A stretch of DNA of 64,000 nt from Haloferax sulfurifontis ATCC BAA-897 (GTDB lineage Archaea > Halobacteriota > Halobacteria > Halobacteriales > Haloferacaceae). A model generated the notes under the pieces. It was not told the origin of the DNA, made no database searches, and worked only from the letters and a program-made list of their open reading frames with translations. The translations under genes were made by a program, and so were the position numbers. This document shows, one piece after another, positions 19,021 to 50,462 of the stretch. The stretch spans positions 1-64,000 of the forward strand of contig NZ_AOLM01000008.1 in the NCBI RefSeq assembly GCF_000337835.1, in the 5' to 3' direction. Every line of letters starts with the position of its first letter. The stretch's first letter is position 1.

Positions 19021-20586
19021 ATGTCCAGCGAGCGGATGGAGTTGTTCGAACACGTCGAAGCCGACCTCATTCTTCGGGAGTTCTTTCAGGAAGTCACCGA
19101 GTACGCGATATTTCTCCTCGACGCGGACGGGCTCGTGGCGACGTGGAACGAGGGCGCGAGACGCATCAAAGGTTACGAGCACGACGAGATTATCGGTCGC
19201 CATCTATCCGTGTTCTACCCAGACGACGGCGACGGTACGTCCCCCGAGGCGGTGCTCTCAATCGCCGAATCCGAGGGGAGTTACGAGGAGAAGGGGTGGC
19301 GCGTCCGGAAAGACGGGTCGCACATCCTCGTGCACGTGACCGTCCGCGCGCTGAACGACGACGCCGGTGAACTCAAGGGGTTCACGAAAATCGTCCGGGA
19401 CGTCACGGAGACCTACGAGTACCGACAAGAGCTGGAACGAAGCCGAGACCGACTCGAACGCACCGAGCAACTGGCCGATATCGGCGGGTGGGAGGTCGAC
19501 TACGAGACCGGCGACCTCCAGCTGACCGATGGAACCAAACGGCTGGCGGATATTCCGCCCGACGCGGAACTGACGCTCGACGAACTCAGAGACCACTTTC
19601 ACGAGGACGACCGCGCGATTATCGACGAGGCTATCGAGGGCGCGCGAACCGACGGCGAGCCGTTCGACATCGAGATGCGAGTGATAACGGCGACGGGGCG
19701 AACGCGGTGGGTCCAAGTCCGCGGCGAGCCGACGGGCAACCGGACGAACGTCCGCGGCGCGGTGCGCGATATCTCGGACAGGAAGGAGCGCGAAGAGCGG
19801 CTCATGGTGCTGAACCGCGTGCTTCGTCACAACCTCCGGAACAACCTCAACATCGTCAGCGGCTACGCGCGGGAGCTTCGTCGGGACCTCGACGGGGTCG
19901 ATATCCCGGCGCTGGGCGACGGTGACCACGAACGGTTACACGAGACGCTGGAGAACATCAGCGAGACGACAAGGGGTATCGACGCGGAACTGCGGACGCT
20001 CGACAAGTTGGTCGACGCGGCGAGCCGGTTCTCGGCGGAGGCGATGGTGTCGAAGACGAACCGAATCATCGAGAACGCCGACGGGCTCATGTCGACCGGC
20101 GAGAAGGCTCGTCGGTTCGAGAGCGTCGTCAAGGAGGGCGCCGACAGACGCCCGGTTCGCGTCGACGACGTGTTCACCGACCTCAAACAGACCTACGAGC
20201 AGAAATACCCCGAGGTAGAGATTCGACTCGAACCGGGCGAACAGACCGTACTCGCGGGCGAACACTCGCTGTTCCTCGCGCTCGACGAACTCGTACAGAA
20301 CGCCATCGTCCACAACGACGAGGACTGTCCTATCGTCGCTGTCTCGTCGCGTCGCCTCTCCGGCGAGCGGGTCGCCATCACGGTCGAGGACAACGGCCCC
20401 GGCATCCCGCGAACCGAACGCGAGATTCTGAAACGCGGGAAAGAGACCCCGCTGGCACACGGGAGCGGGATGGGGCTGTGGACCGTCCACTGGTTCGTCA
20501 CGCAGTTCGACGGCGAAGTCTCCATCGAGGACCGCGCCGAAGGCGGGTCGACGGTCGAAGTCAGACTCCCCACGCCGGAGAACTGA
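19021..20586 (+). CDS. PAS-domain histidine kinase, soluble
   Basis: 521-aa cytoplasmic sensor kinase with no membrane segment. Order: PAS 1 (residues about 20-130, including GYEHDEIIGRHLSVFYPDD), PAS 2 (about 150-255, PAC ending VRGAVRDISDRKEREERL), HisKA box LNRVLRHNLRNNLN with phospho-His at about 270, and HATPase (about 395-519) with N-box DELVQNAIVHN, G1 VEDNGPGIP and G2 GSGMGLWTV. This layout is the common haloarchaeal single-component-like kinase that senses redox, light or small ligands. No response regulator adjacent. Downstream lies the 9-bp repeat region. Confidence 0.92.
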   Translation: MSSERMELFEHVEADLILREFFQEVTEYAIFLLDADGLVATWNEGARRIKGYEHDEIIGRHLSVFYPDDGDGTSPEAVLSIAESEGSYEEKGWRVRKDGSHILVHVTVRALNDDAGELKGFTKIVRDVTETYEYRQELERSRDRLERTEQLADIGGWEVDYETGDLQLTDGTKRLADIPPDAELTLDELRDHFHEDDRAIIDEAIEGARTDGEPFDIEMRVITATGRTRWVQVRGEPTGNRTNVRGAVRDISDRKEREERLMVLNRVLRHNLRNNLNIVSGYARELRRDLDGVDIPALGDGDHERLHETLENISETTRGIDAELRTLDKLVDAASRFSAEAMVSKTNRIIENADGLMSTGEKARRFESVVKEGADRRPVRVDDVFTDLKQTYEQKYPEVEIRLEPGEQTVLAGEHSLFLALDELVQNAIVHNDEDCPIVAVSSRRLSGERVAITVEDNGPGIPRTEREILKRGKETPLAHGSGMGLWTVHWFVTQFDGEVSIEDRAEGGSTVEVRLPTPEN

Positions 20587-21348
20587 CGTACCGGCTCAAG
20601 TCACATCCTCTTTGGCCGGAGAACTCGGCTCAACGCTGGCGACGTTTTGGTAGTGCGTGGTATGGTGGGGCGAGACATTCTTTGGGTAGTTCCGATAACC
20701 TAGATTATTCGAATTGCCCGGATTGTCTAATTATTCGGATTATCCGAGTGTTCTATAGTATCTCAGTAGTGTCGATACTGTGGATACGGTGCCTGTCGTT
20801 GAGCGGGAACGTGGCTCGGGAGAGGCACACTATCCACACACTTCAAGTAATCCACATTATTTGAAAAATAGAGATTATCAAAAGCACCGGTCGGTTCAGT
20901 CGCGTCGAATCGCGGTGAATCGCTCAGTTTTCCAGAGTATTCGAATTATCCAGATACTGTCGCTCGTCGGGGTTGCGTAACTCGTCCATCGTCGCCGAAG
21001 AATCTGCCCGGGATGGATTATGAGCACCATCTAGGCAAGCTACATTATCTAGATTGCTTGGATTTGGCAGGTGGAACCTGTAGCGATGACCAGTCACGAG
21101 ACCCACGGAACTCGAATAACGCGTCACATCTGGATGTCGTAGATTATTCAGATTATCGCAAGTAAGTGGGTAACTCAAAGACTGCTCATAGTCGAGGAAT
21201 CCAACGACTGTCGATTCTCCAGAGAGATCAGATACCCCGAGCAATCGAAGAAATCTACTAAACCCACGCTTCTTAGATAATCCAAATTATCCACATTGTC
21301 CGAATGTCGTCCGATTTAACCCGGACTCGTGAGAAGTCGTAGACGACT
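20587..21348. repeat. Region of degenerate 9-bp AT-rich repeats
   Basis: Gene-free 760 bases with clusters of imperfect 9-base units close to GATTATCCG. The longest run starts at 20694 and keeps a 9-base period to about 20791 (units GATAACCTA, GATTATTCG, AATTGCCCG, GATTGTCTA, then an 8-base unit, GATTATCCG and so on). Further clusters lie at 20826-20879, 20935-20961 (GAGTATTCG, AATTATCCA, GATACTGTC), 21043-21069 (CATTATCTA, GATTGCTTG, GATTTGGCA), 21142-21159 and 21276-21302 (GATAATCCA, AATTATCCA, CATTGTCCG). Unique G+C-richer sequence separates them. Function unknown; not a CRISPR because units abut and are far too short. Confidence 0.7.
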
Positions 21349-21582
21349 ATGACGACGCATTTCGATGACTTCGACCACGAGACACACATGCGCGAGTCGA
21401 ACCGCATCGTGACGGAGTCCGATATCCGACGCCATCCCGAGTTGCACCTCGCCTACCGAGCGTGCCGGGAGTACGACGCCGACGAGCGGGCGGAGATGGT
21501 GAGCGCCAGGAGACAGCTGACGACGCGTTCGCGAACGCCTGTCAACGACATGATTGGGCCGCCCAAGCGAGTCAGTTCGTAG
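21349..21582 (+). CDS. Small acidic hypothetical protein
   Basis: 77-aa open frame with haloarchaeal composition (MTTHFDDFDHETHMRESNRI at the start, many Asp/Glu, G/C-ending codons) and no membrane segment or metal motif. Two helical stretches are likely (residues about 20-45 and 45-60). Flanked on both sides by 9-bp repeat clusters, which is its only notable context. No family recognised. The coding call rests on composition and on lack of a better frame. Confidence 0.5.
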   Translation: MTTHFDDFDHETHMRESNRIVTESDIRRHPELHLAYRACREYDADERAEMVSARRQLTTRSRTPVNDMIGPPKRVSS

Positions 21583-21912
21583 CCCGGACGGGGTCGAGTA
21601 ACACTCTACGCTGACGCAGACGGCTCACGTCGCCCACATCTTGGTCCAGATACAAATAATCTCGGAGACCGGTACGTACGAGGGCTGTCGTGGCCGTCGG
21701 ATGTGGTTGGCGTCAGGGCTCCGTCAGTGCCGCGGATTCGGGGTAGTCGTGCTTGGGGAGTACACGGCGTCGATACCGACGAGAGCGATTTCCAATGGCA
21801 CCAAATGTATTATTTAAATAATTCAGATAGTTTGGAACTCTTGAGTTATTCAGATATAGTGCGTATCGACCGCGGACACGGGCGGTCGACTGCACCTCGA
21901 CGCCGGCCGAAG
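21583..21912. repeat. Second cluster of 9-bp degenerate repeats
   Basis: Gene-free stretch with the same kind of units as 20587-21348. Near 21805-21850 the run reads TATTTAAAT, AATTCAGAT, AGTTTGGAA, CTCTTGAGT, TATTCAGAT in strict 9-base phase; a shorter patch (GATACAAAT, AATCTCGGA) lies near 21648. No protein-like frame was found here on either strand. Confidence 0.55.
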
Positions 21913-22526
21913 TCACTCGGTCCGTGCGGCCTCGGCGGCCGTTCTGAACGCGCGGGCGTTCGCTTCGGCAGTGTCGAACTCGCCGCGAGCGATGGCGTCG
22001 GCGTCGACGATGGCACTCCCGACGCCGACGGCCGTCGCGCCCGCCTCGAAGAACTCATCGACGTTGTCCAGTCCGACCCCGCCGGTCGGAACGGACGGAA
22101 TGTGGCCGAGGGGACCGCCGAGCGCCGAGACGAATCCCGGTCCGAGCGTACCCCCCGGGAAGACCTTCACCATGTCTGCACCAGCATGGAAGGCGTTCAC
22201 GGCCTCTGTCGGCGTGGTGATACCCACGAGCGAAGGCGCGCCGTAGCGGTTTGCGGTCTCGACGACGCCCTCGTTCGACGAGGGCGTGACGATGAACTCC
22301 GCGCCGAGGACGGTCCCCGCGCCGACGGAGACCTCGTCGGCCGCGAACGACGCCGACACGTCTCGAATCATGTCGAGAACGCCGTCGGTGTTCGCCGTTA
22401 TCTCGACCGTCGAGACGCCGCCGCGGCGGAGTGCGTCGACCGTCTCAACCGCCGTCTCGGGGTCTGTGCCCGAATAATTGCGACGATGCCCGAGTCCGAG
22501 ATTCGCTGGGCGGTGGATGCGACCAT
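21913..22526 (-). pseudogene. KDPG/KHG aldolase (Eda-type), frameshifted
   Basis: Class I 2-keto-3-deoxy-6-phosphogluconate / 4-hydroxy-2-oxoglutarate aldolase homologue; in haloarchaea the KDPG enzyme serves the semi-phosphorylative Entner-Doudoroff path. Reading begins at ATG 22524-22526 with STAQRISDSGIVAIIRA, then the frame must change at the run of C (plus strand) at 22469-22471. The rest is TDPETAVETVDALRRGGVST, VEIT with the catalytic-type Glu, GAGTVLG, and ADMVKVFPGG with the Schiff-base Lys. Restoring one G gives the expected IIRGTDPETA. One missing base in a homopolymer: either a real mutation or a sequencing error. About 205 aa restored, normal for the family. Confidence 0.75.
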
Positions 22527-23487
22527 ATTCGAAGCAGGCCGACCCGCGACTTGACTTTCGGGGTAGCGACACCCGACACAAGCAGGTGTGCGGCGCCGTT
22601 CGTCTCGACTGGACGCGCAATCGAATCCAAACCACTCGGGAGAGGACTTGGGCCCCGCGACCGTCCCGGCACGCATCCGACCGCCTTACAGAAGCGGGGG
22701 GAGCGGCATCAACTCTCGCCATGCCGCGGAGAGTCTCCGGAACCCCTGGCGGAACCACCGCCAGACCGCCACCCTCAATTCGAGATGATTCATGGAGCCG
22801 ACCAGCTGTCATCTGTTCAACTAACGAATATCCAACAGCTTGTGTTACTAGTATCATGGACTACTACCGTCCATAATATTGCTACTTTATTACACTAATC
22901 CTTAATGACAGCTCCATCGGAATCGCAGGAAACGGCAGTCCGGAACGGAAGCGTATACATCACGGCACCGGTAGCAAGAAGGCAGAAAACAGGTCTCAGC
23001 ACGAATCCGTGCAGACAGTTTTAGCAGTTGAACGGCGAGAGTACCGGTCCGAGGGTACGTGACGTCAAGAAGTCGGTAGCGTCGCTACCCGGCCGGAATT
23101 ACACGGTCGACAAAGTTAATACCAGTCTAGTACTTCGCCACCATTCCTTGTGTACTTTCTACAATTTTAATTGTGGACGGGATCGTAGTACTCGTTCGGA
23201 GTGTCAGAAATAGTAACTTCTTCAGATAGACGGAATCACGATTACAGTTGGTTCTATGCCGATTGAATTCAATCCGAAAATCAGTCGACGATCACATCGA
23301 ACAGTCCGGTGGACTATCTCGTGAGATAGTTGGTTCGACTTATGGCCGGTACTATCTGAATATCCAGCCTCGTTGACAGCGACCACAGCTATATACTCGC
23401 TCGCGAGGCTTCGAGATTCCACCGAGCTCCCGGAACGTACTGAGTACGGTTCCCCCCATGCGCGCCATACTGTTCGACGGGAGGCTC
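22527..23487. other. Gene-poor A+T-rich stretch with a palindrome
   Basis: About 960 bases without a recognised gene. Several open frames exist on both strands, but their translations are Arg/Pro/Ser-rich and show no motif. From about 22800 base composition turns A+T-rich. A compact palindrome, ACTATCTC (23313-23320), GT, GAGATAGT (23323-23330), could be an operator or a hairpin. It may be the scar of an old insertion, since the next gene pair differs in base use. Confidence 0.4.
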
Positions 23488-50240: not shown

Positions 50241-50462
50241 GCCGCTCCGTGTCCCTGGCGTCGCCCGGCGAGCGCGTGGCAGTCCACGTTCGTCGTCACC
50301 GTACCGTGTGACTTCACCGTCTCCATACCGGCGAAGACGACGGCCCGCGGGACTGCACAAAATACGGCAGTGATAAAACATTAAAATTATTAACATTAAA
50401 TTTATGCTGTAAATATGGTTTTCACCACGGGAACTAAGTCGTTAGATGGACCCTAAGAAACG

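Follow-up and report, generated by a model that had tools for sequence, protein, structure and literature searches.

What is the function of a series of imperfect, adjoining 9-base units that surrounds a small gene in Haloferax sulfurifontis ATCC BAA-897? The units lie in the 64,000-nucleotide stretch of DNA analysed here (the window; G000:C8:1-64000), which belongs to a draft genome of 3.81 Mb whose contig C8 is not closed. The original prediction, which named no protein or process, offered three explanations for them, namely a protein-binding array, a DNA-bending element or a relic of replication slippage. The first of these is supported here: with a probability of roughly 85%, the window array is a partition site (centromere-like, parS-type) of its megaplasmid, served by a ParA/CBP system, in which CBP is a working name for a presumed centromere-binding protein.

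A degenerate array of near-palindromic 9-bp units

The predicted excess of lag-9 autocorrelation over shuffled controls was confirmed, with a lag-9 identity of 0.344 in 20587-21870 (z=+7.7) that none of 300 dinucleotide shuffles equalled or exceeded; lags 18 and 27 gave z=+6.0 and z=+4.0 against dinucleotide shuffles of the same region. When the DNA was scanned by dynamic programming over 9-bp units with 1-bp slips permitted, 20676-21302 appeared as a single run of 70 units scoring 144 bits under a unit model built from the region itself, compared with a best score of 20.8 in five shuffled windows on both strands. Because this model was trained on the window region, the scan was repeated with a second unit model trained solely on arrays that flank parA in five other Haloferax species. 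With this model, the window region scored 99.9 (300 shuffles: mean 1.6, maximum 31.0), and no array scored as high as 20 when the whole window was shuffled ten times. The units scoring above 5 in the second model share a single phase except for 1-bp steps near 20728, near 20934 and between 21195 and 21248. The seven runs described in the original prediction are real, but the units had been undercounted, and the picture of separate runs around a small gene gives way to one array with an outlying piece, next to the remnant of a deaminase gene (Table 1).

Many units of the window array score weakly, and the units are strongly degenerate; Tandem Repeats Finder left the array in the window undetected because the units are too divergent. 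The G+C content is 52% in 20587-21870 and 48% in 20587-21345, compared with 64% across the window, in agreement with the A+T-richness first noted for the runs. The pooled units have the consensus RRATWATYY in the palindromic register (RATWATYYR in the register used originally), and their frequency matrix hardly changes on reverse complementation. With a near-palindromic unit the array is strand-neutral, as a homodimer site should be. The counterpart of the units at 20935-20961 in H. massiliensis reads GAGTATCCG AATTATCCA, and 21809-21850 matches the last part of the homologous G006 array (L049:7378-7419) at 79% identity.

As already recognized in the original prediction, the contiguous, spacerless 9-bp units do not form a CRISPR array, for which near-identical repeats of ~25-40 bp and unique spacers are expected. 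One run contains TTATCCACA, a bacterial DnaA box, which was taken as a coincidence because archaea are not known to possess DnaA. Elsewhere in the window, a weak three-unit match (50375-50401, 20.3 bits) in A+T-rich DNA is probably due to chance.

Table 1 Array features and associated genes. Positions without a prefix are those of the window; C8 is the contig containing the window, and L numbers denote fetched loci.
Feature	Position	Strand	Remarks
Main 9-bp array	20676-21302	.	~70 contiguous units, phase slips of 1 bp at three places; proposed as a distal partition-site array
Best-preserved run	20694-20746	.	GATAACCTA GATTATTCG AATTGCCCG GATTGTCTA AATTATTCG GATTATCCG; slip shares one base
Well-preserved units	20935-20961	.	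GAGTATTCG AATTATCCA GATACTGTC
3' end of main array	21276-21302	.	GATAATCCA AATTATCCA CATTGTCCG
Outlying array piece	21808-21861	.	5-6 units
PAS-PAS-HATPase histidine kinase gene	19021-20586	+	Context only; wherever the gene was found in Haloferax, its 3' end adjoins the array
Nucleoside deaminase remnant (77-aa gene)	21349-21582	+	Context only; internal deletion, altered end
KDPG/KHG aldolase pseudogene	21913-22857	-	N-terminal part out of frame, ~12 residues absent
6-unit array	C8:71226-71278 (L053:7226-7278)		Between divergent genes
parA	C8:152460-153323	-	ParA-family ATPase
CBP gene	C8:152053-152463	-	136 aa; 4-bp overlap with the end of parA
Array after kinase gene, H. massiliensis	L048:3983-4624
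Array after kinase gene, H. denitrificans	L134:15460-16102
Array after kinase gene, others	L050; L051; L052; L049		H. gibbonsii; H. prahovense; H. marisrubri; G006, respectively
Second Haloferax parA-CBP system	L207, L210, L217-L219		Second replicon

The kinase gene beside the array shows 98% identity to its homologue in H. denitrificans ATCC 35960. Searches against named plasmids returned nothing useful for the kinase and only deaminase matches for the array region. An intact deaminase homologue occupies the same place in H. massiliensis (153 aa, L048:4671-5132), and a second one is present in G006 (L049, minus strand, about 4130-3674); the reference for the aldolase was a 222-aa homologue in G006 (L060:3923-4591). 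Both remnants seem unrelated to the function of the array as far as visible.

Arrays and the parA-CBP operon on one Haloferax replicon

To map the array units genome-wide, a scan suggested in the original prediction, a pattern of three units with up to 3 mismatches was used, with the reversed pattern as control. G000 yielded 10 forward and 9 reverse matches, all on C8 (20.7-21.8, 71.2, 152.0 and 153.4 kb), and none with the control. All matches listed lie on a single contig in each of ten well-assembled Haloferax genomes (G000, G164, G002, G003, G004, G006, G010, G011, G012 and G013), and this contig is the one with the orthologous parA. In near-complete assemblies this contig is 195-395 kb long and never the largest replicon or main chromosome (G013 C2, G010 C3, G004 C4, G002 C3). 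Matches fall on at least two contigs in G001, G005 and G007, which may be fragments of one replicon. The sites of G006 are spread round C3, at 0.5, 41, 75, 151, 263/265 and 401 kb.

The ParA encoded on C8 (AAA_31, E 3.1e-32; PHROG ParA-like, E 1.9e-41) has the deviant Walker A motif KGGIGKST. The window array is the longest of its kind found on the replicon, yet it lies 131 kb from the parA-CBP operon, which is on the same contig outside the window. Of 15 Haloferax genomes, 13 have both the orthologous ParA (identity of 89% or more) and the orthologous CBP (68% or more). The only two genomes without them, which may be close relatives, have no array match (G008) or one site (G009), and each of the other 13 has 5-15 forward matches. 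The site in G009 is a lone 5-unit array-like run (C5:63008-63036; L211:8011-8055), possibly a relic or chance. Three-unit matches in G044, G094, G097 and G080 were set aside, as no ParA lies near them and they look like chance or other systems.

In all 13 array-bearing genomes, units of the RRATWATYY type flank the two-gene operon. In G000, nine units lie directly upstream of parA and three start at the CBP stop codon; in G004, G005, G010, G012 and G013, much longer array blocks occupy both sides of the operon, followed by orc1/cdc6. The array is also conserved at its own locus, another point raised in the original prediction: it follows the homologous histidine kinase gene in other Haloferax. 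This gene and a long array are present in seven genomes (G000, G164, G002, G001, G006, G007 and G011), where the parA-side arrays are short, and the long arrays lie beside parA instead in the five genomes with the extended blocks. As the long array is thus kinase-side in seven genomes and parA-side in five, the distribution suggests that the main partition site may have shifted its place during the history of the genus. G003 has neither a kinase match nor long parA arrays in the stretches examined. The genes around the 6-unit array at 71 kb of C8 appear to encode a peptidase-like protein and a luciferase-like monooxygenase, and nearly the same units are found in H. gibbonsii (G007:C3:102457-102494).

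In every one of the 57 parA loci examined, the CBP gene was found no more than 1.5 kb from parA. Conserved features of the small, acidic CBP are the N-terminal motif DPFGDLDAAM and a C-terminal domain of ~75 residues; the protein also has an acidic linker. It has no family match in Pfam or NCBIfam, ParB models included. Among PDB sequences, a profile search brought up neither a relative (best E 0.019, proteasome) nor SegB. Its AlphaFold2 model (44 sequences, pLDDT 82) consists of an extended stretch and helices at 47-69, 76-89 and 91-102, a layout that would fit a ribbon-helix-helix monomer. Foldseek gave no match with this model, and in a further structure comparison with five chains, NikR (Z 2.6) was the sole structural hint of a ribbon-helix-helix protein.

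Nine-base periodicity at parA-CBP loci across haloarchaea

Of 146 genomes of the order, 52 yielded CBP homologues; a ParA is recognisable just before CBP in 38 of the 40 non-Haloferax loci fetched. In the 300 bp upstream of parA in these 38 loci, the mean autocorrelation was 0.365, 0.362 and 0.338 at lags 9, 18 and 27, respectively, and about 0.23-0.27 (0.234-0.269) at the other lags from 4 to 30. Corrected for coding 3-periodicity as the excess over lags 6/12/15/21, the signal was 0.126; control stretches of the same loci gave 0.000 when drawn at random (p=3e-21) and 0.002 when A+T-rich (p=2e-17). The excess was above 0.06 in 89% of loci, so that clear periodicity is not a feature of every haloarchaeal parA locus. 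On plasmid PHS3 of Halobacterium salinarum R1 (complete, circular), a 9-bp array with a unit of about TCTACTGTG lies just upstream of parA. Plasmid unnamed5 of Salinigranum rubrum (39 kb, circular), whose ParA is the closest to that encoded on C8 among the plasmid records listed (70%), has a weaker lag-9 signal with AGGTAGCTA-like units at that place. In L281 and L285 (G045 and G076), CBP-family genes have no tblastn-recognisable ParA nearby and may use a different ATPase.

The unit differs by system (RRATWATYY, RnAMWKYnY or ACAAWTTGT-like, ACCTnAGGT-like, CTAnnnTAG-like), and the units of other genera include CTAnnnTAG-like ones and ACGATTYKT. Paralogous parA-CBP loci on other Haloferax replicons carry 9-bp arrays with units of their own, either ACAAWTTGT-like or ACCTnAGGT-like. 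Units are the more similar the higher the CBP identity is (Mantel r=0.363, p=0.0005, n=33), their similarity rising from 0.42 at CBP identities below 30% to 0.91 at 70-80%; close relatives supply part of this signal, the correlation below 50% CBP identity being r=0.128 (p=0.011).

The second parA-CBP system, with ~45% ParA identity and ACAAWTTGT-like arrays upstream of parA, was seen in nearly every Haloferax genome examined. A third system, with ACCTnAGGT-like units, was seen in L208 (G164:C6) and L209 (G013:C1); the G013 operon lies inside the 2.98-Mb main replicon, perhaps in an integrated plasmid.

A proposed partition mechanism and its alternatives

In the proposed mechanism, CBP dimers would bind the palindromic 9-bp units side by side, one dimer per unit, to form an extended nucleoprotein complex, which the nucleoid-bound ParA ATPase would capture and move, bringing the plasmid to each daughter cell. 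Through the short arrays round the parA operon, which would double as operators, CBP may repress its own operon, and the further small arrays round the replicon, such as that at C8:71226-71278, may be auxiliary sites. Against this reading stand the 131 kb between the window array and the parA operon, the many weakly scoring units and the negative family and fold searches with CBP.

CBP might instead bind the arrays while the window array acts as an operator or a nucleoid-organising site, regulating neighbours or folding the replicon, and not as the partition site proper. Short arrays do lie in promoter regions, between the divergent genes at 71 kb and upstream of parA, sites are scattered over whole replicons as in G006 C3, and the likewise dispersed SegB sites of Sulfolobus have been proposed to be chromosome organisers (PMC12284271). 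However, 70 units are far beyond the need of an operator, and the genes downstream of the array vary by species (a bat-type regulator or a deaminase) while the array persists. Moreover, the arrays of plasmid pSM19035 overlap promoters and are centromeres together (PMC9499535), so that operator and partition roles need not exclude each other. We consider this alternative unlikely.

Iterons of a replication origin or of copy control, bound by Orc1/Cdc6 or another Rep protein, are classic tandem repeats, and orc1/cdc6 adjoins the arrays in five genomes (G004, G005, G010, G012 and G013). Yet an Orc1 homologue is present in only 19 of 58 parA-CBP loci within the fetched stretch, and the window contains no orc1. 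In G000, the orthologue at 136 kb of C8 is separated by ~15 kb from parA and by ~115 kb from the window array. A further argument is the variation of the unit with CBP. The iteron reading was rejected as very improbable because orc1 does not track the arrays. The C8 gene (L059:14072-15301; G000:C8:136073-137302) shows 96% identity to the array-adjoining gene of G004; par and orc1 are adjacent in one species group and apart in the other.

A relic of replication slippage, which the original prediction allowed, or a decayed satellite, in either case without function, would agree with the strong degeneracy of the units and with the neighbouring pseudogenes, but the substitutions in the kinase-adjacent array preserve the unit pattern, altering the unit score far less than substitutions placed at random would (window versus H. 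massiliensis: +53 observed, -173 expected). All ten ordered species comparisons gave p<0.01, a result that the alignment, which can favour the register, may inflate somewhat. As arrays also recur at parA operons across the order, such a relic is more improbable still, and a pure DNA-bending element is not needed. The least credible candidate is a structured or regulatory RNA from the intergenic region: the + strand folds at -203.9 versus -172.6 kcal/mol when shuffled (z=-3.8, 20 shuffles), but palindromic units fold by construction, which explains this value, the array reads nearly alike on both strands, an Rfam search gave no match, and array positions and lengths shift between loci while period and unit stay constant.

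With partition as the preferred reading, the closest worked-out parallel, by analogy, would be the delta-omega system of pSM19035 (type Ib ParABS), whose ribbon-helix-helix protein omega occupies 7-10 adjoining heptads (5'-WATCACW-3') per array, each with one dimer; the arrays lie at the par promoters and at several plasmid places, and at least four contiguous units are required for full stimulation of the ParA ATPase (PMC9499535). Both systems combine a small ParA, a small site-binding protein and contiguous short-unit arrays at par promoters and elsewhere on the plasmid. The Haloferax unit, however, has 9 bp and is palindromic, in contrast to the 7-bp, non-palindromic heptad; one array has ~70 units, and sites lie more than 100 kb from the operon on an archaeal megaplasmid. 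No sequence family links CBP to omega, and the best reading is that the partition system would resemble type Ib in layout, with a possible ribbon-helix-helix fold of CBP.

Among archaeal systems, SegAB of Saccharolobus/Sulfolobus likewise pairs a ParA-type ATPase with a small site-specific partner and has palindromic sites both near the operon and dispersed, but each of these sites is an isolated 13-bp palindrome (TCTAGASTCTAGA), located on the main chromosome (PMC12284271, PMC5120986), unlike the phased 9-bp arrays of Haloferax with their other consensus. The pNOB8 AspA-ParBA system also partitions an archaeal plasmid, its AspA dimers lining the DNA from a palindromic site; it differs in having three genes, a winged-helix AspA that nucleates on one 23-bp palindrome and then spreads, and no 9-bp arrays (PMC5120986). 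Judged from its sequence, parA-CBP is not a type Ia ParB-CTPase system, as no ParB/Spo0J CTPase domain was matched and CBP has 136 aa. Haloarchaeal replication-origin repeats (ORB) adjoin orc1/cdc6 and resemble the Haloferax arrays as repeats near orc1 on haloarchaeal replicons, whereas the arrays follow parA-CBP. The chances are about even that haloarchaea possess a ParA partition system of a class not described before, whose CBP proteins, likewise an undescribed family, coat contiguous palindromic nonamers with a unit 'code' per system, whose main centromere can relocate far along the megaplasmid (more than 100 kb from parA), and whose further sites are dispersed over the replicon.

Haloarchaea are polyploid and carry several megaplasmids. 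No earlier description of haloarchaeal partition sites was found in the open-licence literature searched. The available portion of a 2016 review of archaeal segregation describes SegAB and pNOB8 AspA-ParBA and names no haloarchaeal site, and the words ParA, partition and centromere are absent from a 2020 review of replication and repair in Haloferax volcanii. For the segregation of haloarchaeal megaplasmids, for which the literature searched describes no DNA site or adaptor, the finding supplies a concrete site, a candidate binding protein and a sequence rule predicting partition sites for many haloarchaeal replicons. A unit of its own for each plasmid could explain how co-resident plasmids are compatible, and archaeal plasmid segregation becomes directly testable.
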